From: a virus
Direction: 5' to 3' (one strand)
Virus record (IMG/VR): IMGVR_UViG_3300036766_000988
Coordinates: 1 to 64,000 of that record
Length of the DNA stretch: 64,000 bases
This document shows positions 36,104 to 57,834 of the stretch, piece after piece. A program made the position numbers and the translations under genes. The notes beneath the pieces are model-generated. The model was not told the origin of the DNA, did not search any database, and saw only the letters and a list, made by a program, of their open reading frames with translations. The stretch's first letter is position 1; every line of letters starts with the position of its first letter.

Positions 36104-36856
36104 TCAGAAGTCCTCATCAGCAAGAAGCCGCGTCCAGGCATCTCGGGGATCCTTGGGCTTCTCACAAGGTCTCCAACGCGTCGAGAAGGTCACAACATTC
36201 TCATGGAGAACTTTCTCGGTTCGCCAAACGGCCACTTGCACTCGAAGCATCGTGAGTTCTGTGATGCACGCAACGACTTGGCCCCCTTCCGCTTCAGGGT
36301 GCTGCACCCACTGACCGATCTGTAGCCAATCCGGGCGCACAAACGGGGGCACCTCGGAACCGTTCGCATCCGTGCCGGAGTCGTAGATCGGCAGCGCCCC
36401 CTCGGGAAGTTGCTCGACGAGGAACGTGCGACGACCGACCGACTGGTAGTCCATCCGCTGCCGTATAGGCGCGACCATCGCCTGAGCAAGCCGCTGACGG
36501 CCTTGCTGCGACTCTAGAGCCTGCCGGATGATCTGCTCTTGTGTGATCTGAGGAAGAACGTCACGATTGAGGTTCCCTAGATCAAGCAACCCATGGGGGT
36601 TCGTGAGCCGCTCAAACCCAAGGATAGGGCGCGTCGTGAGCGGCGTTTCAACACGACCATACTGGTCGTGGATCCTACGTAGAGCAGGTGAATCCGTCTC
36701 TAGGGACTCGTTCCGCCAATGAACAATGAGGCTCGGGACCGGCCTACGTAGGACGTCAATAGACGCAACGTCGCCAGATTCCGCGAACAGCGCCCGATGG
36801 CTGTTCATCAAGATCCGACCGTCGAGGTCGTTCGGATAGAAAAGTGTCCAGGGCAC
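36104..36856 (-). CDS. Protein with capsid N-arm-like segment, SH3-like region and acidic C-terminal motif
   Basis: 250 residues from GTG 36856. Residues about 120-153 (MVAPIRQRMDYQSVGRRTF, then VEQLPEGALPIYD) resemble the N-terminal arm of HK97-fold major capsid proteins of large phages, by recall. A beta-rich segment follows (DWLQIGQWVQHPEAEGGQ), then AWTRLLADEDF at the C-terminus, a motif shared with ten other proteins here. Possible capsid-associated accessory protein; inference. TGGTG-TAGTCT lies 11 bases before the GTG. Confidence 0.65.
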   Translation of the reverse strand: MPWTLFYPNDLDGRILMNSHRALFAESGDVASIDVLRRPVPSLIVHWRNESLETDSPALRRIHDQYGRVETPLTTRPILGFERLTNPHGLLDLGNLNRDVLPQITQEQIIRQALESQQGRQRLAQAMVAPIRQRMDYQSVGRRTFLVEQLPEGALPIYDSGTDANGSEVPPFVRPDWLQIGQWVQHPEAEGGQVVACITELTMLRVQVAVWRTEKVLHENVVTFSTRWRPCEKPKDPRDAWTRLLADEDF

Positions 36857-36907
36857 GGGAAGGCCCGAGACTACACCATCAAAAAGAAGCTAAGAAATGT
36901 TACGCAG

Positions 36908-36981
36908 TGGAGTGTCGTACGGGGATCGAACCCGTGTACCCGGATTTAGAGTTCGGTGCCTGACCTCTAGGCTAACGACAC
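36908..36981 (-). tRNA. Amber-suppressor tRNA, anticodon CUA
   Basis: 74 bases with encoded CCA. Acceptor GTGTCGT/ACGACAC is a perfect 7-bp stem; D-stem GCCT/AGGC; T-arm ACGGG-TTCGATC-CCCGT. Anticodon arm CCGAA-CTCTAAA-TCCGG has U33 and anticodon CUA, which reads UAG. One A-C mismatch in the anticodon stem. The GGCACCG...TCCGG surroundings resemble bacterial tRNA-Gln(CUG), so glutamine charging is likely but inferred. Discriminator base is U. Confidence 0.88.
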
Positions 36982-36985
36982 GAGA

Positions 36986-37285
36986 TTACCGACCGATTGC
37001 CACAAGAGCTTCATCCACAGCCGTGTCGGCCAGGATAAAGCTCCGCATGGCCCGAACCCACCCAGCATTCCGAGCGAACTGAATGAACGCCGAAATTTCC
37101 TCGGGCCCCACGGTGGAACAACGCCGTTCGGCAAATTCCACCGTGAGGATGTGACCAGGGCTGGTCTCATCCTCGATGAGGACTCGAAGTCGAGGTCCGA
37201 TACTAGGCTTCAAAGCCCGAACCCTGAAGCGGTACGGAACTCCGTTGACCTTGATCTGTCGGGTGCCCCTTCGAGGCATCGTCAT
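36986..37285 (-). CDS. Small basic hypothetical protein
   Basis: 99 residues, basic N-terminus (MPRRGTRQIKVNGVPYRFRVRALK), beta-rich middle. No family. ATG 37285 overlaps the PTH2 stop (ATGA) and has CGGTG-TACTGA 6 bases upstream, embedded in the PTH2 3' codons. Its stop is 5 bases before the tRNA 5' end, so the tRNA is likely co-transcribed. Confidence 0.65.
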   Translation of the reverse strand: MTMPRRGTRQIKVNGVPYRFRVRALKPSIGPRLRVLIEDETSPGHILTVEFAERRCSTVGPEEISAFIQFARNAGWVRAMRSFILADTAVDEALVAIGR

Positions 37286-37662
37286 GCAGCTTCAGTACAC
37301 CGAAGAGCGAGCGGAAGACTACTGACAAGACGACGAGCTGCGGGTTCAAGAGCAAACGCCGTCAACTCGTTCCCCCGGTCGGGCTCATGGAACGGCGCCA
37401 CCGAGAAGCCCCGGTCGACTGCCCTGTTGAAGAGGCCCCAAAGAGCCTCCTCGTTGGGCACGGCAAGCATGGCGAGGTAGTTCGAGCGCGTGTACCACGC
37501 CTGATCGATTTCCGGGTGATGAGCCACGAACTCCCGCAAGGCGTGCGCCGTCTGGATGGCTTGCACCCCCGGAGGGAGATCTTCCCGCGTCACGAGGAAA
37601 AGTTTGTCGGTCGGGCCCACAACAAGACTCCGTGAACCCAGATGAGCACCCATGTTCTCCAT
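37282..37662 (-). CDS. Peptidyl-tRNA hydrolase PTH2-like protein
   Basis: 126 residues from ATG 37662. The pattern KLFLVTREDLPPGVQAIQTA followed by HALREF, and later FHEPDRGNELTAFAL, is that of the short PTH2-like branch found in phages and plasmids. The family releases peptides stuck on tRNA. Being two genes upstream of a suppressor tRNA gives a coherent tRNA-related setting. ATG at 37653 is an alternative start. Confidence 0.75.
   Translation of the reverse strand: MENMGAHLGSRSLVVGPTDKLFLVTREDLPPGVQAIQTAHALREFVAHHPEIDQAWYTRSNYLAMLAVPNEEALWGLFNRAVDRGFSVAPFHEPDRGNELTAFALEPAARRLVSSLPLALRCTEAA
37292..37302 (-). promoter_or_regulatory. CGGTG-TAnnnn element inside the PTH2 3' end
   Basis: CGGTG-TACTGA, 6 bases before the ATG at 37285, coding for part of LRCTEAA of the upstream gene. 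Confidence 0.45.
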
Positions 37663-37663
37663 G

Positions 37664-38260
37664 TCACGTCGTCCCCCCATCGGAGTCCTCGTCGTACTCG
37701 TTATCGTCTTCCGCCATAACCCTGCGTTCGTCGGCGCACTTGCGGAAGTGCATTGAAACCGCCCCGATGATGGTTTCGGGAAGACCCGCCGTCTTCAGGC
37801 TCTCCTTCCAACCCACCTCGGAACGATCCCCTGCGATCCAGTGCTTTTCCCCGATGATGAACTTGGGCGGATCACTGTAGACGTTCCCGCCAGGCGTCTC
37901 CAAGTAGGGCCACAACTCCAGCGGGCTGTCATTGCAACAACCGCAGTTATGCCGAAGATCGAAGCGGTCGACTTTCGTGTTCACGGACTTCGAATAGTAG
38001 GCCACCTTGTTCCAGCGGCCCGTAAACTGCCGAAGATCCGGGTACTCCTTGAGAAGGGACTCGATCTGGTCCGCTTGGGCAAGCGCCGCTGCGGCTTCCT
38101 TGCGAAGCTTCTCGATTGCGCGTGGAACGGCAAGTCTAGCATCCTCCTCGACCTTCTTTTGCCATTCCTCAGCGGCCTTGCGACGCGACGCTTCCGCAGC
38201 CGCTTGCTGCTCGGGGGTGGGCTCGGATGTCAGGGCCTTCAGAAGCTTCTTGCTGAGCAT
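37664..38260 (-). CDS. Hypothetical protein with helical N-terminus and Cys core
   Basis: 198 residues from ATG 38260 (TGATG overlap). Residues 10-70 form a charged helix (EASRRKAAEEWQKKVEEDAR). The C-terminal half has HNCGCCNDSPLELWPYLET, KHWIAGDRSEVGW and a final acidic tail (DDNEYDEDSDGG). No family recognised; Cys/His spacing would allow metal binding. Confidence 0.65.
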   Translation of the reverse strand: MLSKKLLKALTSEPTPEQQAAAEASRRKAAEEWQKKVEEDARLAVPRAIEKLRKEAAAALAQADQIESLLKEYPDLRQFTGRWNKVAYYSKSVNTKVDRFDLRHNCGCCNDSPLELWPYLETPGGNVYSDPPKFIIGEKHWIAGDRSEVGWKESLKTAGLPETIIGAVSMHFRKCADERRVMAEDDNEYDEDSDGGTT

Positions 38261-39456: not shown

Positions 39457-39836
39457 CACGCGACCTCCGTACGGACGTAGGGCTTCTTCTCCCGCACCGG
39501 AGCCGCGATAGCCCCCTCGGGGTTGGCGAGCCACTGCTCGACCTCGGGGCTCGGCTTCGTCGCCCACGAACTCTTGGCCACCTCGGCGAAGCCAGGGATG
39601 TGCGTCCCGAGGATCGTCGTGATGTACCGTGCGTTGGGCGGGTTGTGGTTGACGACCGTGCCGTCCGGCATCACCTGCTGCCGGGTCTGGCGCTCGACGC
39701 GGCGGTACGGGAAACCCCGCACGAACGCCCACGCGAGGTTGCCCTCACGGCCTCCGGTGTTGGCACGGATGGCCCGGTGGATCGCCTTCACTTGCGCCTT
39801 CTCGTCGGCGCTCATCTGCTTGTAGTTCTCGAACAT
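39456..39836 (-). CDS. Hypothetical protein, first gene of a four-gene operon
   Basis: 126 residues, helical N-terminus then Pro/Ala-rich C-terminus. ATG 39836 follows AAGGAG with 7-base spacing. Upstream lies a leader with a 7-bp hairpin (CTGTTTC/GAAACAG, 39866-39889) and a TTGACA site, unusual for this genome, suggesting this operon is transcribed by a host-type promoter. Confidence 0.65.
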   Translation of the reverse strand: MFENYKQMSADEKAQVKAIHRAIRANTGGREGNLAWAFVRGFPYRRVERQTRQQVMPDGTVVNHNPPNARYITTILGTHIPGFAEVAKSSWATKPSPEVEQWLANPEGAIAAPVREKKPYVRTEVA

Positions 39837-39865
39837 GATCTATCTCCTTGATTTGACTCTACTGT

Positions 39866-39889
39866 TTCGCGGTTGGCTGAAACAGGAGT
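39866..39889 (-). promoter_or_regulatory. Leader hairpin
   Basis: CTGTTTC-10-base loop-GAAACAG, 30 bases before the start codon of the 39836 gene. It could shield or time the downstream ribosome-binding site. Confidence 0.35.
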
Positions 39890-39947
39890 CCAAGGAGGAC
39901 CACGTGCAAGAGCGAGGTGCAGCTAGAGGAAGTGTTTCACGGGGAGC

Positions 39948-39976: not shown

Positions 39977-40033
39977 CGGGATCGTGACGTCAGGCTCACT
40001 TCTTCTGAAAACACCGTTGAAGTCGGAGGTGCG

Positions 40034-40382: not shown

Positions 40383-40928
40383 TCAGCCGCTCAGGAACCG
40401 GGCGGTGACCCGAAGCGCTGTAGTATCCTCGGGACTGCACGCGATCTGCATCGGAGTTGTGCTGACGTGATGGATCTTGAACTCAACGCTCTTCGTCTTG
40501 AGAAACGTGTCGAAAGCCCCGACATGTTCAGCACGGTCTTCCCACATCTCAACCTGCTTTGTTGTCTCTGACAAGAGAGCAGCGATCGTCTTGAGCTTGA
40601 AAGGGAGCGTGTCATCCCCGTTAGAAAAATGGGTCTCATCGAACCGGAGGCCCACCTCAGCCAACAGAGCTTGGACCCGAGTCCGCAGCTTCGGAGGCCT
40701 GCCTGTAATCATGATCGCATAGACACTAGGATTGGAAATGGACTTGCGTGCCGCTGCCACCGTAGAAGCCACCCACCACTCAGCGTCAGGCTTTTCTGGC
40801 ACGCATGGAGGCGAGAGACTCTCAAGCCGACCCCACCAGCCCTGCGTCCACCACTCAGGTTTCGCAGGCGAGCGAAAAAGCGTCCCATCGAAGTCGAAGA
40901 CATGCAGGGTCTCGATAGTCACGGGCAT
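40383..40928 (-). CDS. HAD phosphatase of the Swiss-army-knife RNA-repair type (HAD_SAK_1-like)
   Basis: 181 residues. Motif I VFDFDGTLFRSPA (10-22), WW residues at 26-27 and 51-52, PPCVPEKP (40-47), MITGRPP (73-79), FKLKTI (110-115) and MWEDRAEHV (128-136) together match the HAD domain of Swiss Army Knife RNA-repair proteins (PF10307) as I know it. Predicted to remove phosphates from RNA ends. The C-terminus ALRVTARFLSG is a shared short motif. Overlaps the ART-like gene by 10 bases. Confidence 0.8.
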   Translation of the reverse strand: MPVTIETLHVFDFDGTLFRSPAKPEWWTQGWWGRLESLSPPCVPEKPDAEWWVASTVAAARKSISNPSVYAIMITGRPPKLRTRVQALLAEVGLRFDETHFSNGDDTLPFKLKTIAALLSETTKQVEMWEDRAEHVGAFDTFLKTKSVEFKIHHVSTTPMQIACSPEDTTALRVTARFLSG

Positions 40929-42181
40929 GCACCAGGGGGTCGAGGGTCAGCTTCACCTTTCCAGTAGGTCGTAACAAGAAGCATCGAATGGCCCTTCGGA
41001 CGCACGACGATCGAGAGGCCACTCGCCGAATCCACCCACTCAAAGCTTGTGCCCCGAGCCCAGCCTTCGGTCACCCGCTGGTACATTTGGTTCTTCTGCG
41101 ACTTCCAGTCGTTGAGCGCCTTCAAGAGAGAACGAATGCCCGCTCGAACAAGCGGAACCGTGATGCCTCGTAGATCCATCCGATACTGCGCGTGTGGAGT
41201 GATGAGGATGTTGTCGATCGACCCGATCCCATGTTCTCGATCAGGGCTGTAGATCTTCGCGGCATCTGGGTTCTGTACTTTCTCACCGTGCTCGACGTCC
41301 TCAACGAGGTCATCACGAACAGCCGGATTCCGTACTTCCTTCTCGATGCGCTCGACCACATGGCAAGGTCCGCCGGGATAGCCTAGGGGAGGATCAAGAT
41401 CCGCCTGACGGTCCAACGCCGAGGTCTTGGGTGCCACCCACGCACCCAATTCGATCGTCAGAGCCACCTGGACTTTCGATGCTGGGATGTCCCCCAGATA
41501 TGCAATTGATCCAATGCGCGCAAGGCTCTTGGTGGGATCGGTTTCGCGACTATCTTCATCGGCCGCGACCTTCGAACCATCAATGCCGCGTACTTCTAGA
41601 ACCACTGCCGTTCCGTGGTGAGCTTTCGCAGCATCCAGCGCAGCGAACTTCGCCATCGAGAGCTGGGTCGTCAAATACACAGCTTCGGCTCGGCCTACGC
41701 CAGCGCCAGACCCCACCCCATAAGCAGGAACTACGTTGGTGTGGCTGCGAGGTCGTAGTCCCTCGACCAAAATACGAGAAGCCGCCGTAGAACTCGTCCC
41801 ATGATAGAAAGTCAGATGCTCCCAGTTCACCGAAGGTGTGTGGGGTTCCCCCAATAGCTGAGAGACAGGAATCCACGGCCCGTCAAACTTGATGACGAAC
41901 TCGTGTAGCTCGGGGTACTCCCGCACCATCTCACGAAGCGCCTTGTGGAACCCTGCGTGATGTTCTGTGGCACCATCAACCATGAGATTGCGCCAGTCGT
42001 TCTCACGCGCAAGGCTGAGCGCCGCATCCCAAGCCCAACCACCACGGAGGTACCCCCCAAGCTCCCAAGAACCTGCATCGTCCCCGTGGAAAGAGCCGTG
42101 ATACTTCTTGCCCTTACGTGGCAACGAGGCGGCCTGCCTGGCGAGAAACCGGGCGACGACTCGAAGGGCCAGCGCGTTCAT
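40919..42181 (-). CDS. ADP-ribosyltransferase-like protein with BrnT/DUF4258-like C-terminus
   Basis: 420 residues. N-terminal helix ALALRVVARFLARQ (4-17) is a shared tag. A central region has FYHGTSSTAASRILVEGLRP (about 124-143), AVYLTTQLSMAKFAA and VVLEVRG, the ART-like (KptA/toxin) layout with H-x-T. The C-terminal region (LITPHAQYRMDLRGITVP, then WVDSASGLSIVVRP) resembles BrnT/DUF4258 RNase-like domains. KptA-type ARTs remove 2'-phosphates after RNA repair, so an RNA role is possible; a virion toxin is the alternative. Confidence 0.6.
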   Translation of the reverse strand: MNALALRVVARFLARQAASLPRKGKKYHGSFHGDDAGSWELGGYLRGGWAWDAALSLARENDWRNLMVDGATEHHAGFHKALREMVREYPELHEFVIKFDGPWIPVSQLLGEPHTPSVNWEHLTFYHGTSSTAASRILVEGLRPRSHTNVVPAYGVGSGAGVGRAEAVYLTTQLSMAKFAALDAAKAHHGTAVVLEVRGIDGSKVAADEDSRETDPTKSLARIGSIAYLGDIPASKVQVALTIELGAWVAPKTSALDRQADLDPPLGYPGGPCHVVERIEKEVRNPAVRDDLVEDVEHGEKVQNPDAAKIYSPDREHGIGSIDNILITPHAQYRMDLRGITVPLVRAGIRSLLKALNDWKSQKNQMYQRVTEGWARGTSFEWVDSASGLSIVVRPKGHSMLLVTTYWKGEADPRPPGACP

Positions 42182-43586: not shown

Positions 43587-44873
43587 TCACTCGTAGTCGC
43601 GACGGCCGACATAGCTCGTCTTTTGAGGCACACCCTTGTTCGACAGGTCTTGGAAGCGGTACGTGATGACAGTACCGATCGCGGGCGGGTTGCGACGATC
43701 CTTGTCCGAAAGCCCCGTCCCGAGGTTGAACTCCACCCCAGCGTTGAGCGACACCTTGTCGTTGAAGAACCGCTGGGACTTGCATTCGAGAGCGCCCACG
43801 CGACCCTTGTGCTTACCCTTCCCCGCCGTGTACCCCGTGACGTAGGCCTCGGCATCGTAGAAGGTCTTGACCTTCACGAGGGTGTCACTTCGAGCCCGTA
43901 CGTAGAGCGAGTTCGCCTTGCGGAGCATGACGCCTTCACCACCGAGCTTCTCGACCTCATCGAGGTACATGCGAAGATGCGGGATGCCACGGCAGATCTG
44001 ATGCTCGACGAGCTTGACCTCGTTATACTTCCGCGCGACCGCCTTCAACATGTCGTACCGCTTGGAGAACGGCTCCTGCACCATCGGAAGGTCGAAGGCT
44101 CGGAACTGGATCTGCTGCCAGTAGGTTCCCTGATCATGACGGCGAACGAAACCGCTCGTCTCCTGGAAGCGCTTGCGGCCAATCCAGAACTCCCCGTCGA
44201 GGTGCAGATCCTTCGGGAAGTGCTGCAAGTACCACTCGGGCACGCGGAAGATGTTGTCGAGCCGCGAACGGAAAACCCGGCCGTCCCAGTAGGCCCGCAC
44301 CCCATCGAGCTTCTCGCTCATGAGATAGCCAGTCGGATCGAGCACCCCGTCCCACGACTCCGCAAGCAGAACCGCGAACTTCGACTCGCCTTCCTCTTCG
44401 TTCTCGGTCACGAGAACGGTCTCCACGGGAGGCGGAGGATCATCCCCGAACGGATCGGCGCCGAGCAGACGAGTCCACGCCGTAGCGGGCGCTGCTGGCT
44501 TCGGGGGTGGCACGGGCTTCGACCGCACGGTGGCCAGCTTCGACGGCACGAGATAGCGTGCAGCTCGACCGTTCTGCGTCACCTGCCCACCAAGAAGAGA
44601 CGTGGGGAGAGGAGCCCTTCGTTGGGGAGTGGGGGTCGACGGCGCATTGTAGGACGCCGCAGCCTGGACCGACGTACGAACACGGACATCCTCGGCGGCC
44701 GAGCCACGGAACGCCCGCAGGTGCTTGCATGTGCGCTGATCGATGCCCAGCGACTGATTCCGCCAAGCAGGGCACGAACAACTGTAAACCCCACCCGTGT
44801 TGTAAAGCTCGTAGCTCCGTCCCGAGCTGGAACGGACCGTACGACGCTCACCATCGCGAAGATTCTCAGGCAT
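43587..44873 (-). CDS. ATP-dependent DNA ligase with N-terminal SWIM zinc finger
   Basis: 428 residues. SWIM-type finger at 32-51 (C32, C34, C49, H51). Pro-rich linker (80-150) containing TAWTRLLGAD (131-140), a match to the C-terminal motif of other proteins here. Ligase core: motif I EKLDG (187-191, Lys 188), III LDGEFW (225-230), IV EGVMLRK (313-319), V VKVK (333-336), like the small periplasmic or viral enzymes. No clear OB domain motif VI seen. Seals nicks in DNA or hybrid; the SWIM finger should add nucleic-acid binding. AAGGAG before the ATG. Confidence 0.85.
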   Translation of the reverse strand: MPENLRDGERRTVRSSSGRSYELYNTGGVYSCSCPAWRNQSLGIDQRTCKHLRAFRGSAAEDVRVRTSVQAAASYNAPSTPTPQRRAPLPTSLLGGQVTQNGRAARYLVPSKLATVRSKPVPPPKPAAPATAWTRLLGADPFGDDPPPPVETVLVTENEEEGESKFAVLLAESWDGVLDPTGYLMSEKLDGVRAYWDGRVFRSRLDNIFRVPEWYLQHFPKDLHLDGEFWIGRKRFQETSGFVRRHDQGTYWQQIQFRAFDLPMVQEPFSKRYDMLKAVARKYNEVKLVEHQICRGIPHLRMYLDEVEKLGGEGVMLRKANSLYVRARSDTLVKVKTFYDAEAYVTGYTAGKGKHKGRVGALECKSQRFFNDKVSLNAGVEFNLGTGLSDKDRRNPPAIGTVITYRFQDLSNKGVPQKTSYVGRRDYE

Positions 44874-45272: not shown

Positions 45273-45283
45273 CGGTGTACTCT
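45273..45283 (+). promoter_or_regulatory. CGGTG-TAnnnn element, right half of a divergent pair
   Basis: CGGTG-TACTCT, 6 bases before GTG 45290. Only 36 bases separate the two divergent start codons. Confidence 0.6.
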
Positions 45284-45289
45284 AACAGC

Positions 45290-45733
45290 GTGCCGCACTG
45301 GATCCTTCGAGACCACATACCCGTCGAGGTCGAAGACCCTCTCGTCTGGGCCCAGTTCTTTGAAGACATGGAAAACCGACGTGTTGCCGAAACCCTCATC
45401 GGTTCCGCACGCATCTCGACCGTCTTCTTGGGACTTGACCACAACTTTGGGGGAGAGGGCCCGCCCCTCCTCTTCGAAAGCATGATCTTTGAGGGACCCG
45501 AAGACCTCAACGAGCGAGAGGTGCGGTACGCCACGTGGGACGAGGCTACCGCAGGTCACCAAGAGCTTGTTCAGATTGTCTCGGAACGCCTGGGCATCAT
45601 CTCAAAACCGTCCAAGAGCCTCGTTGCCCGCATCGCCAAAAAGGTCGTCTTCGCGGAGAACCATCGGGTACCGAAGCCTTCTCTGACCGCCTGGGATCGT
45701 ATCACACGCGATGACGATGACGATGATCTCTAG
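45290..45733 (+). CDS. Hypothetical protein with acidic C-terminal TAWDR motif
   Basis: 147 residues from GTG 45290, fixed by the promoter-like element 6 bases upstream. N-terminus HWILRDHIPVEVEDP, aromatic; a longer in-frame ORF upstream is antisense to the minus-strand genes. C-terminus LTAWDRITRDDDDDDL carries the shared acidic motif. The stop overlaps the convergent J-domain gene stop within CTAG. Confidence 0.65.
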   Translation: MPHWILRDHIPVEVEDPLVWAQFFEDMENRRVAETLIGSARISTVFLGLDHNFGGEGPPLLFESMIFEGPEDLNEREVRYATWDEATAGHQELVQIVSERLGIISKPSKSLVARIAKKVVFAENHRVPKPSLTAWDRITRDDDDDDL

Positions 45734-46155
45734 ACGGGACGCATCCTAGCAGCGTAGTACGGCCCTCCAGGGCCAAACGGCGCTCCCGTAGTAGGCGTTC
45801 CCGTTGTAGCCGCACCCGTGACGTGCATGGTCGAGAACGGATGACGGAAAACCACCTGCCGGATGATGATGATCGGCTGAGGCGGCATCTGAGGAGCCCT
45901 CCGAAGCGTCATCTTTTCGATTTTTTCGTAGACCGTGGCAAGCGTCCTGAACCGCTCGGTCTTTTCAGGGTCGTTGCCCGTGCGGTCAGGATGTAGCTCG
46001 AAAGCGAGCTTCCGATAGCTCTTCCGAGCCCGTTCCTTCAGCTCTTCGAGGGCTTTTCCACCTAGCTCGAAGGGCATTCGTTCGATCGCTTGAAGATCCG
46101 CGGGGTAGTTCACCCCAAGCGCACAGAGCATCGAAACGACGAGGGCCTGGTCCAT
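45730..46155 (-). CDS. J-domain (DnaJ-like) protein
   Basis: 141 residues. J-domain at about 34-85: ALEELKERARKSYRKLAFEL, HPD at 55-57, then a last helix FRTLATVYEKIEK. The C-terminus is a flexible Pro/Thr/Gly tail without zinc or client domains. It should recruit host DnaK to a phage target, for instance in virion assembly or replication. Confidence 0.85.
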   Translation of the reverse strand: MDQALVVSMLCALGVNYPADLQAIERMPFELGGKALEELKERARKSYRKLAFELHPDRTGNDPEKTERFRTLATVYEKIEKMTLRRAPQMPPQPIIIIRQVVFRHPFSTMHVTGAATTGTPTTGAPFGPGGPYYAARMRPV

Positions 46156-46166
46156 CGGTGTACCTT
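46156..46166 (+). promoter_or_regulatory. CGGTG-TAnnnn element
   Basis: CGGTG-TACCTT, 30 bases before GTG 46197 with AGGAG in between. It overlaps the start of the divergent J-domain gene. Confidence 0.4.
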
Positions 46167-46196
46167 CACTTGTACCGCAACGATAGGAGAATCATC

Positions 46197-46451
46197 GTGG
46201 CCCTAGTTTCCGAAGTGCAGCATGTCTACTACATCCGATGCTGCGGCTGTTACCGACGAGCCCGGTTGGCCTTTCACCGGATCGTTGCCATCGGCTACGC
46301 CAAGAAACAGGGGTACACTCGACACGTCACCCTCAGTGGCACCAGCACTGAAGTCGTGTGGCTCTGCAAAGTGTGCTCGAAGAGTGACATCGTGCTCAAG
46401 ACCCTCGAAGAAAATTCTCCCCCCAAACCTGCAACCACCGCCAAACGCTGA
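46197..46451 (+). CDS. Small zinc-finger-like protein
   Basis: 84 residues from GTG 46197 with AGGAG nine bases upstream; GTG 46158 is an alternative. RCCGCYRRARLAF near 14-26 and WLCKVCSKSD near 59-68 form two CxxC knuckles. Starts the plus-strand zinc/SH3 block. Confidence 0.6.
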   Translation: MALVSEVQHVYYIRCCGCYRRARLAFHRIVAIGYAKKQGYTRHVTLSGTSTEVVWLCKVCSKSDIVLKTLEENSPPKPATTAKR

Positions 46452-46454
46452 TCC

Positions 46455-47960
46455 ATGCCCGAAGGACAACCGCTCGTCAGCGAGATCTGGGAAATGGTGG
46501 ACGGTACCGGACGATCTGTCCGAGGGATCGTTGCTGATATGACCCCGACCGTCGCCACCTTGGTCTCTTTCACGGGAAACCGCTTCCGCATCAGTCCTTC
46601 GAGGATGCTCACGACGTGGCGCTTTGCTCAAGCCCCTCCTCCGACCGCTCTGCGGTGCAATCGACGTGGATGCAACCAACCAGGGATGCTCCGTTTCCAG
46701 CGAGGACTATCCCCCGAGTGGGTCTGCCCCAGGCACCTGCCCGTGGGGGTTCAAGCTTCGCTCACGACCGAGAGCTTAGGCCTTCCTCAAACCCCTCAAG
46801 CTCAACAGGTCCAAGTCCCCCTATGCCCGAGATGTCACGTCGCGGGTCTGATGATTGAGGACGCGCGGGTATCGACCCTTCAAGTGCAGTTCTGGCAGTG
46901 CCCTCAGTGCAACGCACGTTGGGGATCGCTATCGATCCCTCCCACCTTGGTGGAAAACGTAGCCTCCTACGTTCGGGCAGCCATCGATGACTTCATGACC
47001 CAGACCCGTACGCACCAAGTGCGGATCGACCAGATCGAAACCCGCTCCTACATCCTCCCGCAGCTCTTCGGAGATACGCACCTTGCGGAAGCTGCGCCCT
47101 CAACGCCCCCTCAGCTACACCTCTACCGTGGATTGCATGTCGTACAGAACGACAACCTTGGAGAGGGGGTTGCGATGATCTTCCGCACCAGCGGCGCCCC
47201 CGTCGTACGGGACACCAGTCGGGATCATGTCATGGCCCTGCCCACCAACGAAGAGATGTTGATGGGGTCGCCTGCACGACGCACCGTCGCCGAAGCTGTT
47301 GCCGAAGCCCTTCGAGCGGATCGCGAAGAGAACCGAGCTGAACTCTTGGCTCGCCCTGTTTCCCAGAACGTGATCGACAGCTACCGATCCAGCGAGTCTG
47401 AGTACGTCGGCATTTTTCCGGTACGGCAAACCCTACCGGTTCTCCCAGCCGATCCTCAACCCTTCATACCTGTGCAGCAAATGGGGACAATAGAGGAAGA
47501 AGCTTGGATTCAGGAACAAGCCCCGACCCCTTTCGCGGCCGTGGGCCAACGATGGATCCAACGCAAAACCGGCGACCTCATCGAGATCACACGCGTTGGG
47601 CCCACGGACGACCGAAGCACCACCGTAGTACACTTCAAGCGGGTATCGGATGGAGTCGAGTCGTCAAACGCCATGTTGCTCGACGACTTCATGCGCGAAT
47701 GCCACCCCTACACAACAAGATCAAGTCAACCCCAGGACATCCCTGTTGTTGTGGTGCTCAAAGACGAAGAGTGGGAGCACGTGGATTCAGGAGAAGTCGT
47801 GCGGATTGATACGGTGGACTCCAAACGTGATCTCATCATCGTCATGCAGAAAGAGGGTAAACGTCGAAGCGTGCCCCTCTTCGAGTTTGCCAACGCTCGA
47901 TGGCGCAAGATCATCCGACGCACTGCTTACGACCGCCTCCTCGACTTGGAGGACGACTGA
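46455..47960 (+). CDS. Zinc-finger and SH3-like multidomain protein with acidic C-terminal motif
   Basis: 501 residues. Beta-barrel-like N-terminus (SEIWEMVDGTGRSVRGIVAD), zinc knuckles at about 67-96 (CNRRGC, CPRH) and 124-153 (CPRC, CPQC), a helical centre, ARPVSQNVIDSYRSSESEY at about 306-324 that weakly resembles the capsid N-arm, then two SH3-like units (QRWIQRKTGDLIEITRV; EEWEHVDSGEVVRIDTV). Ends TAYDRLLDLEDD. Stop overlaps the next ATG (TGATG). Confidence 0.65.
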   Translation: MPEGQPLVSEIWEMVDGTGRSVRGIVADMTPTVATLVSFTGNRFRISPSRMLTTWRFAQAPPPTALRCNRRGCNQPGMLRFQRGLSPEWVCPRHLPVGVQASLTTESLGLPQTPQAQQVQVPLCPRCHVAGLMIEDARVSTLQVQFWQCPQCNARWGSLSIPPTLVENVASYVRAAIDDFMTQTRTHQVRIDQIETRSYILPQLFGDTHLAEAAPSTPPQLHLYRGLHVVQNDNLGEGVAMIFRTSGAPVVRDTSRDHVMALPTNEEMLMGSPARRTVAEAVAEALRADREENRAELLARPVSQNVIDSYRSSESEYVGIFPVRQTLPVLPADPQPFIPVQQMGTIEEEAWIQEQAPTPFAAVGQRWIQRKTGDLIEITRVGPTDDRSTTVVHFKRVSDGVESSNAMLLDDFMRECHPYTTRSSQPQDIPVVVVLKDEEWEHVDSGEVVRIDTVDSKRDLIIVMQKEGKRRSVPLFEFANARWRKIIRRTAYDRLLDLEDD

Positions 47961-49453
47961 TGCCCCCGCCTGGAATCCCTGATTGGGTCTTCCCCGGGGC
48001 TGTCGTACAACAGAACGGCCGCAGGCCCCGTTACGCCATCGGCACGATGGACCTACATAGCGATCTCCGACACTGTGAGATCTTCCTGCAACGAATCATC
48101 GAAGGAGATCCTCCGAGTCTCGCGAACGGAGAAGACTTCGAGACCATGTACCTCGGAGATCTGCTGGGCGGCTGGCATCACACGGGTGAGTATCTTTACC
48201 CTCGTATGTCCCAACCAATTAACGTCACAGGTCTGGGTGCGTTCCCAATTGGGTCTACTGTTGACATAACAAATTCCCGAGGAGAGCACGAATACTTCTC
48301 AGTCACGGGTCACGCAGAGAACACGAGCCAGATTATCCATCTCGACCAACAGATAGCCACTCAAGCCCCTCCGCTTGTAGGGGAGTGGTATCGTTGGGAA
48401 TCCGGAGACGTCCCGATCACTCTCTTTTTCGTCGAAGGAATTGCGAACGGCCAAGTTGAAGTATCCCTTGGGATGACCGACACGCTGGAACACATTCCCG
48501 TCGAGGACTTCATCCGAGCCTTAGCCAACGGACCTCGCGATGAGCCCCGTGGAGAGGCTTCCGCCCAACATCTCAACTACGAATGGGTGTTCTCCGAACC
48601 TTATCTAGATGACACGGACGAATCCGGCTTCCTTCCAGGGAGCGTTATGTTGGACACTGAGGGTCGAGAGTTCTTCCTTCTTGCCCGCAACCGCAACAAT
48701 ACATGGGTTTGCCGTGCTGCTCATGACATGAGCACATGCCCCGAGAACTACCTCGCTAGAGCGCATTTTCTCGCAAGTCAGTTCAGGGCGCAGTTCCACA
48801 TGGAAGCTGTCGAAGTGATGAGCGGAACCCCAGAAGGAATAGGGATGTCGTTCGCGGAGCGCGTTCTCCAACTGAACCAACCCATGGGCAGTGCATATCT
48901 CGCCGGGGAGCCGATCCATGAAGACGACCCCGATTACTTCAGACCCGTAAACGGAGATATCTCAGGCAATCCCGAACCCCCAATGCGTTTCCGTATCGGT
49001 GATCGATGGCATTTCGACGCCCCCAACGAAGGTATCTGGACGCTTGAAACGGTGGAGGATAGGTATCACGAGGGAGAGCACACGATCACCAATAGATTCC
49101 GAGGGGACGATGGGGCTGTCATGTCGGGCCCCCAGGACTGGGTCATCCGCAACGGTCGACGGATCACGCCACCGGATCCTAGGTTCACGGGCGATCCAGT
49201 CGAACCCAACCAAGTATGGGAGATCCCTACAAACACCACACGGCAGCCCACTTCTCGATGGAAAGTCACAAGTCTCGCTACCCGTTCCACTGGAGACGAA
49301 ATGGTGAACCTGACCCCCGAGAACGGAAAAGGAGCCCCCATCTGCTGGCCGGTGATCCGACTCCGGGCCCAAGGCCGATGTGTTTTTGACGGCCGCATCC
49401 GTCGAACATCCTTCGAGCGTCTCATCTCCGACGAGGGCGATGATGTCGGGTGA
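47960..49453 (+). CDS. Multi-SH3-like protein with acidic C-terminal motif
   Basis: 497 residues. Several beta-barrel-like units each built around an aromatic and a Gly (IGDRWHFDAPNEGIWTLETV; NQVWEIPTNTTRQPTSRWKV; PGSVMLDTEGREFFLLAR), a layout like the neighbouring genes. No enzyme motif. C-terminus TSFERLISDEGDDVG. TGATG coupling upstream. Probably binds the same partner as its neighbours. Confidence 0.65.
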   Translation: MPPPGIPDWVFPGAVVQQNGRRPRYAIGTMDLHSDLRHCEIFLQRIIEGDPPSLANGEDFETMYLGDLLGGWHHTGEYLYPRMSQPINVTGLGAFPIGSTVDITNSRGEHEYFSVTGHAENTSQIIHLDQQIATQAPPLVGEWYRWESGDVPITLFFVEGIANGQVEVSLGMTDTLEHIPVEDFIRALANGPRDEPRGEASAQHLNYEWVFSEPYLDDTDESGFLPGSVMLDTEGREFFLLARNRNNTWVCRAAHDMSTCPENYLARAHFLASQFRAQFHMEAVEVMSGTPEGIGMSFAERVLQLNQPMGSAYLAGEPIHEDDPDYFRPVNGDISGNPEPPMRFRIGDRWHFDAPNEGIWTLETVEDRYHEGEHTITNRFRGDDGAVMSGPQDWVIRNGRRITPPDPRFTGDPVEPNQVWEIPTNTTRQPTSRWKVTSLATRSTGDEMVNLTPENGKGAPICWPVIRLRAQGRCVFDGRIRRTSFERLISDEGDDVG

Positions 49454-49922
49454 ACCAGAGCGATACAGTCGCTACCCCGAGGTCGGGCTGTTCTACGCCA
49501 TGCGTGAGCCCCTGTGCCTCGCACAGATCACGGCGGTTAGCACCACGGGCCTTGGTAACGGACCGACCAGCGTCCTTCTCAATGCCTGGACGCCCACATC
49601 CGATAAAGAGGAGCTGTCCTTCATCGACCTACGGGCCGACATGGCAGACTACCTTTGGCACAGCGAGGAAATCGAACTCGGCTCAGGTCATTACGCCGGG
49701 TGGAAAATCGATGCTGTTGCGGGCGACGTGTACTTGGCCACCATGATCAACCGTCTCTGGTTCGCAGGACCCAAAACGACTTCCAAGATGCTTCACGTGA
49801 TCGCCAACTTTCATGTATCCGAAAGCGATCTCCTAATGGCAGTCCTCTACCAACAAGGTGCTGGACACCGCAGGCCTCGGTGTAAGACCGCCTTCGAGCA
49901 CATCTTGGAGGATGCCACGTGA
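49443..49922 (+). CDS. Hypothetical protein with C-terminal TAFEHILEDAT
   Basis: 159 residues. ATG 49443 (or 49440) is inside the end of the previous gene, behind GAGG. Beta-rich with VGLFYAMREPLCLAQITAV and HYAGWKIDAVAGDVYLATM, again SH3-like in texture. GTGA overlap with the next gene. Confidence 0.65.
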   Translation: MSGEPERYSRYPEVGLFYAMREPLCLAQITAVSTTGLGNGPTSVLLNAWTPTSDKEELSFIDLRADMADYLWHSEEIELGSGHYAGWKIDAVAGDVYLATMINRLWFAGPKTTSKMLHVIANFHVSESDLLMAVLYQQGAGHRRPRCKTAFEHILEDAT

Positions 49923-50176
49923 GCGGAGTTCAACCAGGTCAGCTTTGGATATCCCCCGAACCCGAAACATATTATGTCTCGGCAATCGGCAATGACGGAA
50001 CAGTCTGCGTCGTTCCGGTGCGTATCTCAGGCACGGGACCACACGCGCAGATCATCCGCAAAGGCGACTCAAAAAGCGTCAAGACCTCGGAGATGCTTGA
50101 GCTGTGGATGCCTACCGCCAAGACCAGCGAACCCGGCCCGACGTGGCACGAGCGGATCATGGCCGACGAGGACTAG
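49919..50176 (+). CDS. Single SH3-like domain protein with acidic C-terminal motif
   Basis: 85 residues from GTG 49919. VQPGQLWISPEPETYYVSAI is the minimal version of the barrel repeated in the larger neighbours; ends TWHERIMADED. Its stop overlaps the convergent DUF3307 gene stop within CTAG. Confidence 0.65.
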   Translation: MSGVQPGQLWISPEPETYYVSAIGNDGTVCVVPVRISGTGPHAQIIRKGDSKSVKTSEMLELWMPTAKTSEPGPTWHERIMADED

Positions 50177-54224: not shown

Positions 54225-54230
54225 GTAAGA

Positions 54231-54241
54231 TCACTACACCG
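54231..54241 (-). promoter_or_regulatory. CGGTG-TAnnnn element of the Nudix gene
   Basis: CGGTG-TAGTGA, 6 bases before ATG 54224, starting at the base after the upstream stop codon. Confidence 0.55.
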
Positions 54242-54397
54242 CTAGAAGCGGTCGTAGTCTCTCGTCTTGCGTAGAGGTCTGTGTTTCCGGGGGTTGGGAG
54301 ACTCCCAACGAAGTACATCCGCCAGCACAACGAATAGGAGCGCCGCAAGAACAAGGGCGATCCACAAGACATCTTCGATCGAGACGCTGTCGGCCAT
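54242..54397 (-). CDS. Small single-pass membrane protein
   Basis: 51 residues: acidic N-terminus, one membrane helix (LWIALVLAALLFVVLADVL, 11-29), then a basic tail (PRKHRPLRKTRDYDRF). Positive-inside rule places the C-terminus in the cytoplasm. Could be a holin-like, spanin-like or exclusion peptide. Confidence 0.6.
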   Translation of the reverse strand: MADSVSIEDVLWIALVLAALLFVVLADVLRWESPNPRKHRPLRKTRDYDRF

Positions 54398-54467
54398 GGA
54401 AAGCGGAAGGGACGACCCTCAAGCGGTCCCTTACAGGCGGCCAAGAGCACGTCCCCTCCAGTCCCCT

Positions 54468-54710
54468 CTACACCGAAATGTCGTCGGACAAGAGACGTTC
54501 CCAGAACGTGGGCAGTTCTCGTTCCGTCGCATTCAGTTGCGCGACAAGCGGGTGTGAATGAGGCGCGTCTTGCCGCAGAACACTCCACCGCACCCCGCAG
54601 TCAGCACAAAAGATCGTGATGGGCTGCCACGGACGCTTACCTTCGTGACACCCGAGCGTATGCCCCTTCTTCCGAACGTGGTCCCGAGCTTTCTCGATAG
54701 ACGTCTTCAT
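54468..54710 (-). CDS. Small Cys/His protein with C-terminal FWERLLSDDISV
   Basis: 80 residues. GHTLGCHEGKR and FCADCGVRW give a likely zinc site; the C-terminus carries the shared motif. Its last codons (TCG GTG TAG) also form a CGGTG-TAGAGG element. Confidence 0.65.
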   Translation of the reverse strand: MKTSIEKARDHVRKKGHTLGCHEGKRPWQPITIFCADCGVRWSVLRQDAPHSHPLVAQLNATERELPTFWERLLSDDISV

Positions 54711-54991
54711 AGGAACCCCTCATCGAGGATCTTAGCCCAGGCAGAGCCGTCACGCGGAGGAATGTGTCGAAAGGCTTTTTCGAGCACAACACGAGCTTCT
54801 TCTGAGGTCAGGAGCACCCGCAGGGCCCCTGATTGGACAAGGGTGATCCTTGAAATACGCACCTGGAACGAACACGAACGGCAAAACAGCAAGACCCCGA
54901 GCCCGCGACGTACATCCGGAGTCACCAAGATATCTCGGTGGATGGTCGTTTCCACGTGCTTCCGCATGCGGGCAATAGCCGAATTGCTCAT
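54707..54991 (-). CDS. Small zinc-like protein with C-terminal SAWAKILDEGFL
   Basis: 94 residues; LLFCRSCSFQVRI at 34-46 is a zinc knuckle, the rest helical. The C-terminus is a variant of the shared motif. ATGA overlaps on both sides. Confidence 0.65.
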   Translation of the reverse strand: MSNSAIARMRKHVETTIHRDILVTPDVRRGLGVLLFCRSCSFQVRISRITLVQSGALRVLLTSEEARVVLEKAFRHIPPRDGSAWAKILDEGFL

Positions 54992-55281
54992 CTGCGTTGT
55001 TTGCGCTTGTGAGGACGGATCTTGACCCGCCCGTCTTGTTTGCTGATCCAGGCAACTGTCTTCGCGAACTCCGCATGCCCGAGAAGAGCCTCGACCGTGT
55101 AGTACGTCGCTTTCAATTCACGGTTCGTGAAGAACGCGTGAATCGACTTGTGGCAGTCTCGGCAAAGGGTCTTGGTAACCTTTCCCCCCAGACTCTTCGG
55201 CACGAGATGATGGTCAGTCGGGTGATAATTGGGCCGCAGACAGAGCGGGCACCTATCAGGTGTCGTCATCAAGGAAGTCAT
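54988..55281 (-). CDS. HNH endonuclease-like protein
   Basis: 97 residues. CPLCLRPN (11-18), HHLVPKSLGG (24-33), CRDCHKSIHAFF (40-51) follow the HNH order with two CxxC pairs. Basic C-terminus (KIRPHKRKQRR). In phages this type is either a packaging-associated nuclease or a homing enzyme. ATG 55281 or 55269; both overlap the upstream gene. Confidence 0.8.
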   Translation of the reverse strand: MTSLMTTPDRCPLCLRPNYHPTDHHLVPKSLGGKVTKTLCRDCHKSIHAFFTNRELKATYYTVEALLGHAEFAKTVAWISKQDGRVKIRPHKRKQRR

Positions 55282-55570
55282 CTTGGAGCCTCATCCAAGC
55301 AGTCGGTCGCTCTGTCGTGATGCCGGGTATTTTGAGCATCGCCTTGAGAAGTTGCTGTGGACCATCCTGCATCTTGTAGAAAGGCGCCAGCTCAGGTTCA
55401 GCCATGATCTCACCGTGCGTGATGCTCCACTCCTTGGCGCACTTGCGACAGCGAAAGCACCAGGTCATCGGATAGGGGTGAATCCGTACCTGGGCATCGA
55501 ACTCCCGGTGCTGGGGCGTCCGCGTGATATGCTCGAAGATCTCCCCGATTGTTTGACGAGCTTTACTCAT
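55256..55570 (-). CDS. Zinc-finger-like protein with C-terminal TAWMRLQDDFLDDDT
   Basis: 104 residues from ATG 55570. TWCFRCRKCAKEWS at 36-49 is a CxxCxxC knuckle. The frame extends 336 bases further upstream but only as antisense-quality sequence through the next gene. Shared acidic C-terminal motif. Confidence 0.65.
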   Translation of the reverse strand: MSKARQTIGEIFEHITRTPQHREFDAQVRIHPYPMTWCFRCRKCAKEWSITHGEIMAEPELAPFYKMQDGPQQLLKAMLKIPGITTERPTAWMRLQDDFLDDDT

Positions 55571-56222
55571 CGTCTCCAAGGAGTTCCCCAACTTTCTCCC
55601 ACGCGATGGGACGATCCCGTCCTGCCGTGAGCTTCGCAGACTCAATCTCAGCTCCCCATCCGAACCTGTCCGTGAGGTCTGGGCGCCCCCCGGCAGCGAT
55701 CTCATCCTCTGAGAAGACCCAAGAACGCCGACATCTTGTAAGATCGGCGTAACACGAGATCGTCCACGCAGTGAGGAACGTGCGTCGGTCAAGGCCCTCA
55801 GCGAGCGAGCCCCCTTGCTCAATTGTGAAGCTCCGATGCTTGTCCAACGCGACGTGATCTCGAAGGTCTTTGAGTTTGCGGGTGAATCCATTCGCAAGAC
55901 CTGCAAACGCTTCGGGATTCACGCTCTCGATGTGAACCCGCACCTCGGGTTCAAGATCGAAGAGGAAGCTCACGAAGTTCGGCTCTTGAGGTCCCCCTAG
56001 GGTGCCTTCCAAGAGGACTTGGCCCATGGCCACCGTGGAGTCGTAGAACACGTTGACACCCCACGCCATCCCGGCCGGGCCATACCCGAGGGTCATACGG
56101 TCGAAAATATCGAGCCTTGGCGCGATTGGTGCAAATTCGGCCTCAGCGACCCGGATGCTGGTGACCCGACCATCCTCCCGCTGGATGAAGTCGAAGGCGG
56201 TCGAGAGCTGCTCAGGGGTCAC
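55563..56222 (-). CDS. Hypothetical protein with C-terminal IAWEKVGELLGDDE
   Basis: 219 residues from GTG 56222, with CGGTG-TAGACT 6 bases upstream. Alpha/beta with FVSFLFDLEPEVRVHIESV; C-terminal half helical. Shared C-terminal motif, variant form. No family. Confidence 0.65.
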   Translation of the reverse strand: MTPEQLSTAFDFIQREDGRVTSIRVAEAEFAPIAPRLDIFDRMTLGYGPAGMAWGVNVFYDSTVAMGQVLLEGTLGGPQEPNFVSFLFDLEPEVRVHIESVNPEAFAGLANGFTRKLKDLRDHVALDKHRSFTIEQGGSLAEGLDRRTFLTAWTISCYADLTRCRRSWVFSEDEIAAGGRPDLTDRFGWGAEIESAKLTAGRDRPIAWEKVGELLGDDE

Positions 56223-56228
56223 CTAGAA

Positions 56229-56239
56229 AGTCTACACCG
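56229..56239 (-). promoter_or_regulatory. CGGTG-TAnnnn element
   Basis: CGGTG-TAGACT, 6 bases before GTG 56222. Confidence 0.55.
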
Positions 56240-56249
56240 GATCGTCGAA

Positions 56250-56492
56250 CTACCTACCACGACGAAGCTTCCCTACGCTCCCGCGCCCTCCCTCGGTCGT
56301 GTGCTGTACGTCGCGCCGCACGGTCGTCCCACACTCCTCGCAGGAGCCCCGGCCATGCTTGCAGAGCTTCGGAGGATCAGGCTCCACGTACTCGAACGAA
56401 GGCGCCCCCCTCCACCAGTCCTTGGTTTCCCGAGTAGGTGGCGCTTCAAAAGGATTCTTCGTAGACTCACGGGGCCAGGGCTTCGTGCTCAT
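56250..56492 (-). CDS. Small hypothetical protein
   Basis: 80 residues from ATG 56492 (ATGA overlap). KLCKHGRGSCEECG near 45-58 is a zinc-like segment; the rest is Pro/Glu/Arg-rich and probably disordered. Confidence 0.6.
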   Translation of the reverse strand: MSTKPWPRESTKNPFEAPPTRETKDWWRGAPSFEYVEPDPPKLCKHGRGSCEECGTTVRRDVQHTTEGGRGSVGKLRRGR

Positions 56493-56746
56493 GTTCGGCG
56501 GTTCCTTCGACGGTCGAGCCAGTTGAGAAAGCGCTGCCACCTGTTGGTGGGCCACCACGTGCGAACGAGCTTACTCCCGTAGGGGCGTCCGCGCAGGACT
56601 ACTTCCTTGAGGATGCCACACCGGCACTCGTGACACGTAGTGTCGATGGGATGCTCAGCAATCTTGTCCTCGGGGGGCAGCCTACTGAAGGCCCTTCGAC
56701 AGAAGGTGAAGTCGAGGAAGACGCCTCCTGGATAGTGGAGCTTCAA
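56489..56746 (-). CDS. Small Cys-rich protein from TTG
   Basis: 85 residues. TTG 56746 overlaps the upstream TGA as TTGA, with GGAG eight bases before it; upstream GTGs would overlap more. CHECRCG near 37-43 and an early Cys; C-terminus NRWQRFLNWLDRR is helical and basic, not the acidic motif. Confidence 0.6.
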   Translation of the reverse strand: MKLHYPGGVFLDFTFCRRAFSRLPPEDKIAEHPIDTTCHECRCGILKEVVLRGRPYGSKLVRTWWPTNRWQRFLNWLDRRRNRRT

Positions 56747-57105
56747 GCAAGCTTCTCCGTGGCAGTGAGTTCCATCCACCGATGATCGCACCGATTGCAC
56801 TTGAAATGAAAGTGCTTTGGTGCATTCGGGATCTCACACACGATGAAAGTCTGACCCCACCTCCGAAGAAACCAGAAACCGTTCTTCAGGACGTAGTGGC
56901 CGCTCCCGCGACAAATTTGTCCCCAGTAAGTGATGTACTCACTACTGGCCTTACACTCGGCGCACACACGTTTCCCAAACTCGACGAACGGAAGCATCTG
57001 GGAGGATGCTTCTTCCCGCGCCCGGCAGACTTCACACGCCTGGGCCCTGTAGGGGCTCTCGCTCTTGGGTTCGGATTCGGGTTTCTCCGTCACGACGTCG
57101 GTCAT
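56743..57105 (-). CDS. Double zinc-finger protein
   Basis: 120 residues. CEVCRAREE at 24-32, CAECKA at 48-53, then a C-terminal CNRCDHRW at 103-110. CGGTG-TAGTAG lies 5 bases before the ATG. Resembles small DNA/RNA-binding phage proteins; no assignment. Confidence 0.7.
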   Translation of the reverse strand: MTDVVTEKPESEPKSESPYRAQACEVCRAREEASSQMLPFVEFGKRVCAECKASSEYITYWGQICRGSGHYVLKNGFWFLRRWGQTFIVCEIPNAPKHFHFKCNRCDHRWMELTATEKLA

Positions 57106-57110
57106 CGCGA

Positions 57111-57121
57111 CTACTACACCG
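57111..57121 (-). promoter_or_regulatory. CGGTG-TAnnnn element
   Basis: CGGTG-TAGTAG, 5 bases before ATG 57105. Confidence 0.55.
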
Positions 57122-57124
57122 GCT

Positions 57125-57529
57125 CTAGTGCCAGTAGAGCGCCACGGGCGTTTCGGGGTCTAACCCCGCCAGGTACGCCCAGATGGCTTTGTTCTTCCGA
57201 TACTCGGTGACCCCCTTGCGCTTCGCAAGCGCTACGAGATCCTTCGCCAGCACGCAGTAGATCTCTTCTCCGTACGGAGTCGTTTTCGTGACCCCATACC
57301 CATGCTCCTCACACACCTGCTCCCCCTCGCCCACGACATAGCCTTCGGGAAGCCGATGCGTCCCCAGAAAAGAATAGAAGTTCTCGGAAACTGGTTTTCC
57401 GGTCTTCTCCTCGATCTTCTGGATCTCCTCGAAGATCGGACTGCGGTGGCAGTTGAGGATGGTGTGGGAAAACTGAAAGGAAGGCACCGGATACGAATCA
57501 AACGGCAACAGGTAGAGGTCGAGGCCCAT
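57125..57529 (-). CDS. Conserved phage protein (MGLDLYLLPFD type)
   Basis: 134 residues. MGLDLYLLPFDSYP, a His-rich strand (FSHTILNCHRSPIFEEI) and TPYGEEIYCVLAKDLVALA match a small protein I have seen in several phages; function unknown. Start is fixed by CGGTG-TAGAGT 5 bases upstream. Confidence 0.7.
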   Translation of the reverse strand: MGLDLYLLPFDSYPVPSFQFSHTILNCHRSPIFEEIQKIEEKTGKPVSENFYSFLGTHRLPEGYVVGEGEQVCEEHGYGVTKTTPYGEEIYCVLAKDLVALAKRKGVTEYRKNKAIWAYLAGLDPETPVALYWH

Positions 57530-57534
57530 GCTGT

Positions 57535-57545
57535 ACTCTACACCG
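57535..57545 (-). promoter_or_regulatory. CGGTG-TAnnnn element
   Basis: CGGTG-TAGAGT, 5 bases before ATG 57529; its bases also code for SSV-stop of the upstream gene. Confidence 0.6.
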
Positions 57546-57834
57546 AAGAGTCGTCCCCCAAGAGACGTTCCCATGCAGTAGGGGCTACCGGGTTACGAAG
57601 CTCAGGCGTCCTGGCGCGGATGTAGTCAAGGACTTGTTGTTTCGTGAGACTCGGCTCATGCACCATCTTGGTCGTGATCTCACACAGAAGGGAATCATCC
57701 TGAACGATCAGCACAGCCATGGCCCGAGCTGTGATGAAGTCCCCAGCCAACACCGTCTCGACCAAAGCCTTGACCCGTACAGCCTTGGCATCCTCAAAGG
57801 CGTCGAAAGTTTGGTTGCGTTCTTCTGAGGTCAT
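57538..57834 (-). CDS. Helical protein with C-terminal TAWERLLGDDSSV
   Basis: 98 residues, all helical (FDAFEDAKAVRVKALVETVL). The clearest copy of the shared C-terminal motif. ATGA overlap with the upstream gene. Confidence 0.65.
   Translation of the reverse strand: MTSEERNQTFDAFEDAKAVRVKALVETVLAGDFITARAMAVLIVQDDSLLCEITTKMVHEPSLTKQQVLDYIRARTPELRNPVAPTAWERLLGDDSSV

Follow-up and report, generated by a model that had tools for sequence, protein, structure and literature searches.

The C-terminal tip of bacterial SSB is a docking peptide by which one bearer protein engages many binding partners, and SspB docks on ClpX by its C-terminal XB peptide. The capsid-targeting sequence (CTS) of phage T4 and the head propeptides of giant phages are N-terminal, 10–20 residues long, cleaved by the prohead protease and found on a handful of proteins (PMC5694885), while the encapsulation peptides of bacterial microcompartments connect a short helix through a disordered linker to unrelated cargo (PMC12339742, PMC11157265). 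In the Chimalliviridae, import into the phage nucleus sorts phage proteins selectively and in a species-specific manner, the study of it having found no conserved linear signal (PMC11087766). Here we analyse the first 64 kb (the window) of a 252-kb virus record (IMGVR_UViG_3300036766_000988 in IMG/VR, called G000), in which unrelated, mostly small accessory proteins carry a tag of the form P/K/R-[TS]-x-[W/F]-[D/E]-R-[L/I]-[L/M]-x-[D/E][D/E]. We consider it fairly probable that this tag is portable and docks on a receptor that the phage itself encodes, an estimate which does not include the capsid as its destination.

Like the T4 CTS, the tag is short, is shared by several phage proteins that have no other relation and would direct them to a common place. 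Unlike the CTS, for which an N-terminal position is required, it is C-terminal or internal, sits on 20 or more proteins and comes in phage-specific variants. Its Pro-rich flank, capping-box pattern and linker position would suit a cargo peptide of the microcompartment or encapsulin kind, though the low-confidence ligase model shows no helix, and shell proteins or microcompartment genes are not implied here, no search for microcompartment or encapsulin shells having been made. The SSB tip and the XB peptide of SspB resemble it as short C-terminal docking peptides; unlike the SSB tip, the tag is carried by many proteins, and its consensus, TxWERLLxDD, differs. With Chimalliviridae import it would have in common the selective, species-specific sorting of proteins in a jumbo phage, from which it differs by the very presence of a linear signal; no link between these phages and a nucleus was seen, chimallin not having been searched for. 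No description of such a tag was found in the literature searched.

The G000 record, read in stretches, has 441 called genes and belongs to a huge phage with a PolA-type polymerase, DnaB-like helicase, RecA, two ligases, clamp-loader subunits, ClpX, GroEL, RtcB and ribonucleotide reductase. A first-pass annotation of the window had proposed a shared ending, TAWxRLLxDD, on eleven unrelated proteins. All eleven C-termini are present, each closing an open reading frame whose stop codon lies at the coordinate given; the tail at 36104 starts with DAW, not TAW, and IAWEKVGELLGDDE is a weak member. Start codons are doubtful for several of the tagged genes. Column by column the tag reads P/K/R, T, A or small, W, E/D, R, L/I, L, x, D, D, and its architecture is that of a Pro-rich linker or flank before a short putative helix, either terminal or between domains. 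In the open frames of the window all matches to the strict pattern lie within 6 residues of a C-terminus; the core of the W-type tag is found 2–16 residues from the protein end, usually within about 10, and there are internal copies too. There are more instances than first reported: a position-specific matrix built from tag instances gave 19 matches scoring above 14 over the whole 252-kb record, against a mean of 0.15 in shuffled proteins, and 22 against 0.65 at a score above 12, with at least eight copies beyond the window (Table 1). The pattern [TS]x[WFY][DE][RKHL][LIVM] occurs C-terminally 10 times (0.4 expected), and tagged genes are neighbors in five adjacent pairs (0.6 expected).

Such a pattern could be an artefact of paralogy, of DNA repeated where genes end or of chance in acidic tails, and the clustering of the tagged genes and the few paralogues revealed by BLAST would fit this. 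However, when 98 tagged proteins from ten phages were trimmed of 22 residues and grouped by BLAST homology they fell into 87 clusters, so that, as first proposed, nearly all are mutually non-homologous apart from their tails. A MAFFT alignment of 102 mixed tagged proteins, internal copies included, has a mean column identity of 4% and a majority consensus that ends in TxWERLxxD. Only a few of the 102 could be placed by Pfam (the ligase, two kinases, a radical-SAM protein and a TopA-like zinc ribbon), and these have little in common; homology beyond the motif was not found, Pfam and PHROG matches being mostly to single proteins of differing kinds. Searches of IMG/VR with single tagged proteins returned no homologues, which is consistent with lineage specificity. 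At the DNA level, in the C-terminal copies of G000 and G005, a relative described below, Thr is encoded by all four of its codons, Glu by both, Arg by six and Leu and Ile by most of theirs, and synonymous codons are likewise free in the unrelated tag of a further phage, G001. Since third positions are free, a DNA repeat or regulatory element is excluded and selection acts on the peptide. Paralogy, a DNA-level repeat and chance are ruled out by the clustering, the codon freedom, counts far above the shuffled controls and insertion sites that differ between orthologues, and we regard an artefact as very improbable.

The differing insertion sites are those of two kinase-like orthologues, at 235768-236724 in G000 and 135384-136265 in G005, which are 39% identical by BLAST. 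In the G000 kinase, TAWARLMDEDDE lies in an activation-segment insertion of about 38 residues that the G005 kinase lacks; in the G005 kinase, TVWDRLLDEGE lies in an N-lobe insertion of about 20 residues that is missing from the G000 kinase. The motif thus occupies different surface loops in the two proteins. The internal copy noted earlier in the ATP-dependent DNA ligase is borne out (TAWTRLLGADPFGDD, from residue 131). Residues 63–166 of the ligase, around the tag, have an AlphaFold confidence (pLDDT) below 50; the model has low confidence overall (pLDDT 56), was used for linker disorder only, and did not show a helix at the tag. The kinase insertion sites and the linker location in the ligase argue that the tag is a movable docking element. 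A clamp-binding motif was considered for the tagged ligase and is unlikely, as the PolA-type polymerase, NAD ligase, helicase and clamp-loader subunits are untagged. Related kinase-like proteins with a J-domain-like N-terminus (by eye, from an HPD motif) are encoded in G003 (268853-269920, in L086) and LR745208 (131695-132723), phages without the W tag.

Relatives were mostly sampled, and few were read whole. Scanning IMG/VR with a degenerate DNA pattern turned up a 437-kb phage, G005, in which a core pattern matches 19 times and its reversed control twice; this phage has about 96 genes in common with G000 and carries 29 C-terminal tag copies (1.0 expected). Such scans yielded this one second phage only, because most relatives use other variants, and more distant phages were not clearly enriched in C-terminal copies (G003, 1; G001, 4; LR745208, 1; against 0.7, 1.1 and 0.6 expected). 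In an unbiased search for over-represented end patterns the tag ranks first in both G000 and G005. The best discovery scores, which are uncorrected for the number of patterns tried and are read against shuffled controls instead, were −12 in G000, −34 in G005 and −51 in G001 versus −5 to −12 when tails were shuffled; phiKZ and T4 samples, with best scores of about −5, equalled shuffled tails. The top pattern of G001 is a different one, [VI]xx[VI]M[DE][ST] at the very end of 62 of its proteins (the MES tag), and 18 proteins of G003 end in VxxVQ[DE]x (VQES). These five phages all conserve a marker protein of 215 aa, with which more than 80 contigs of up to 619 kb were retrieved. Among 50 marker contigs, G036 had 79 matches to the MES-type pattern and G034 had 23, while the reversed control had none. 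The unrelated tag [VI]xx[VI]M[DE]S, that of a sister group, sits on 18–79 proteins per phage in G001, G034, G036 and, as VQES, in G003, exactly at the C-terminus.

Variants were surveyed in twelve phages at 100 kb each and in a few more in smaller stretches (Table 1). Most sampled relatives own a variant, of the TxWERLLxDD, TLWDHL, PTRFERILxD or PRFERxEVL type; the small counts (1–5) are individually weak, and those of G026, G035, G005, G001 and G036 are far beyond any null. The matrix of their own phage gives the highest score for all 13 tags of G035 and for 21 of the 23 tags of G026, a result that is partly circular as the patterns are phage-specific. Absence from homologues in related phages had been named as evidence against the motif; G005 and most sampled relatives of the clade carry the tag, and three orthologous families keep it across several phages, although ligase orthologues outside the clade are without it. 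The G026 copies include a tandem array at 390-402 kb (L236 90-12313) of about 20 genes for proteins of about 130–150 aa, nearly all ending in PRF[DE]RxxVL, whose mutual similarity is mostly undetectable.

Strong support for the earlier suggestion, a short linear motif recognised by a common partner, comes from the enrichment, the codon diversity, the independent insertions in the kinase orthologues, the disordered ligase linker and the variants of the relatives. Judging from its letters, the Thr may act as a helix N-cap in a T-x-x-E capping box, and on general protein chemistry the tag would form an N-capped two-turn amphipathic helix with W..LL on one face and an acidic end. We suggest that this face would enter a groove on one shared partner with the acidic tail assisting, a single partner being the simplest reading, and that the tag would in this way bring many accessory proteins to the same place or into the same complex. 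The receptor is most likely phage-encoded and co-diverging with the tag, because the tag drifts with phage lineage and because the variant on an orthologous bearer is mostly that of the phage which encodes it.

As to the destination, the capsid or prohead is the single most likely candidate, and we favor it tentatively. The tag would then bind scaffold, portal or capsid, and the accessory proteins would be packaged and delivered with the DNA like the internal proteins of T4. Capsid association is our leading guess because fragments of the major capsid protein (MCP) are over-represented in tagged proteins, the sole direct hint at where the tag leads. Nearly all these phages encode the major head protein (PHROG 2522) at full length, and MCP pieces are found in addition in six tagged proteins (36104-36856 in G000, and in G005, G026, G035, which has two, and G001, with the MES tag), hence with both tag types; the G032 homologue of the MCP-fragment protein also ends in the variant of G032. 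That six of 13 MCP fragments lie in tagged proteins has a Fisher p of ~4e-6, or 0.004 with one orthologous family, to which most of the bearers belong, counted once, some of the stretches having been fetched because of the fragment before tag status was known. The Pro-rich linker and short putative helix, at an end or between domains, resemble cargo peptides, and many small lineage-specific proteins are the expected look of an injected set. On the other hand, annotated tail, capsid, replication-core and nucleotide-metabolism proteins are all untagged, whereas the DNA ligase, the radical-SAM protein and kinases are tagged, and a second motif offers a possible better candidate for capsid targeting. 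About ten proteins of G000 and about ten of G005 bear this motif, RVAxRFL or RVVxRFL (RVAxRY in G005), N-terminally; it also stands at a few C-termini, and never on a C-tagged protein. By analogy with T4 Alt, RVAxRFL is the better candidate for a capsid-targeting sequence; one bearer, 40919-42181, is weakly ART/PARP-like (E = 0.004, below Pfam's cut-off). Pieces of MCP are also found as separate or rearranged small genes in many phages, tagged and untagged (L263 1697-2605, L261 157-474, L264 2714-3754, L097 10873-11397, L009 19182-19598).

The main rival to the capsid is docking on the phage-encoded ClpX, by which the tag would tether its bearers as regulated substrates or, in the manner of SspB, as adaptors that pass captured host proteins to ClpX and host ClpP. 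ClpX is encoded by G000, G005 and every other phage with a W/F tag where it was sought, whereas the MES-tag group and W1 are without it. The protein retains the zinc-binding cysteines and an LGF/VGF loop resembling the ClpP-docking loop, and small proteins that evolve fast and contain MCP pieces could act as baits. However, ClpX is also present in G014, G022 and G030, where no tag was seen. Its co-occurrence tracks phylogeny, and the PHROG 8638 AAA protein is distributed nearly alike, so that both profiles are consistent with the tag and mark the clade without discriminating. A search for ClpP found a ClpP-like protein in G026 and G051 only, and the variable distance to the C-terminus and the internal copies are unlike a classical C-terminal degron: the free C-terminus at a fixed position of an ssrA/ClpX C-motif is not seen with the W-type tag, though the MES and PRFERxEVL variants do end there. 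We judge docking on ClpX unlikely. In G035, ClpX (277131-279443) and the PHROG 8638 ATPase (291538-294417) each show a split of at least 1 kb inside one open frame, suggesting inteins. Docking on a host hub such as RNA polymerase, the ribosome or a nucleoid protein, with variants that mirror different hosts, would agree with bearers that are mostly small and lineage-specific, as host take-over would predict, and host specificity could yield the same variants, but unrelated tag types in one phage group and the co-variation with lineage are simpler with a phage receptor, and we doubt that a host hub is the partner.

A docking tag with a phage-encoded receptor, which we prefer, has to be weighed against several points besides the untagged structural and replication proteins and the separate RVAxRFL set. 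The variants could reflect different hosts with diverged host receptors. The variants of G000 and G005 are indistinguishable by matrix, and the variant patterns were partly written after inspection of the data, which makes the classification partly circular. No clear tag was found in W1, G014, G022, G030 and G050 of the wider group, for which the data are mostly partial. The phages are uncultured, and gene calling was heuristic, with small genes under-called.

Table 1. Tag copies, tag variants and bearers of the RVAxRFL-type motif. Positions are those of the window or of the G000 record, as indicated.
Feature	Position or phage	Strand	Gene and remarks
Tag DAWTRLLADEDF, C-terminal	window 36107..36142	-	36104-36856; also with MCP fragment (MCP residues ~8-67)
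Tag TAWTRLLGAD, internal	window 44454..44483	-	43587-44873, ATP-dependent DNA ligase; linker between N-terminal zinc-finger-like part and ligase domain
Tag TAWDRITRDDDDDDL, C-terminal	window 45686..45730	+	45275-45733
Tag TAYDRLLDLEDD, C-terminal	window 47922..47957	+	46455-47960
Tag TSFERLISDEGDDVG, C-terminal	window 49406..49450	+	47960-49453
Tag TAFEHILEDAT, C-terminal	window 49887..49919	+	49440-49922
Tag TWHERIMADED, C-terminal	window 50141..50173	+	49919-50176
Run of five same-strand genes, several overlapping, every one tagged at its C-terminus	window 45275..50176	+	
Tag TFWERLLSDDISV, C-terminal	window 54471..54509	-	54468-54710
Tag SAWAKILDEGFL, C-terminal	window 54710..54745	-	54707-54991; start uncertain
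Tag TAWMRLQDDFLDDDT, C-terminal	window 55259..55303	-	55256-55570; zinc-ribbon-like
Weak tag IAWEKVGELLGDDE, C-terminal	window 55566..55607	-	55563-56222; matrix score 12.1
Tag TAWERLLGDDSSV, C-terminal	window 57541..57579	-	57538-57834; matrix score 30.1, best consensus match
C-terminal tag copies outside the window	G000 65275, 96539, 107716, 130265, 149821, 243027		matrix scan
Internal tag copy	G000 near 219.9 kb		putative membrane protein; matrix scan
Internal tag copy	G000 235768-236724		kinase-like protein; matrix scan
Variant SLWDRLLGDED	G051		
Variant TLWDHLADD	G010		
Variant TLWDHLSE	G017		
Variant TLWQHLGSD	G019		
Variant TILDRILADD	G013		
Variant TAWGRLLDND	G020		
Variant PTRFERILDDD	G035		13/184 proteins
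Variant PPRFERDEVL	G026		23/130 proteins, many in one tandem array
Variant TVFDHLIED	G032		
RVAxRFL-type motif bearers	window 35601-36080, 40919-42181, 40383-40928		
RVAxRFL-type motif bearers	G000 78641, 82350, 83293, 122491, 139167, 221046		

Other features of the phage were observed alongside. At 36908-36981 the window contains a tRNA with a CUA anticodon (tRNA-Pyl by ARAGORN, tRNA by Rfam), possibly an amber suppressor, though TAG is a common stop in G000. An RNA-repair set comprises a Ro60/TROVE-like protein and an RlaP-like nucleotidyltransferase (window 33759-35519 and 30344-31438) and RtcB (G000 217848-219251). Four consecutive large putative tail proteins, at 10172-18756 of the window, have a similar C-terminal end, approximately PxVxGPxDGxTxP.

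Taken more widely, a widespread group of huge phages may run a private address code, in which each phage places its own C-terminal tag variant on tens of unrelated accessory proteins and reads it by one co-evolving phage receptor, separately from RVAxRFL, with sister lineages substituting the unrelated [VI]xx[VI]M[DE]S; we hold this to be a serious possibility, if somewhat short of an even call. In the strongest cases the tag marks ~4–18% of called genes. As most genes of huge phages are of no known function, it groups many orphan proteins into one functional class, and the tag peptide is a concrete handle with which to fish for the receptor. Should the tag lead to the virion, the tagged proteins would be a list of candidate injected proteins of uncultured phages, and if the partner is the phage ClpX, they would be a list of its substrates or degradation adaptors. 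The tag suggests that a bacterial virus can run a proteome-scale sorting code which drifts between relatives.

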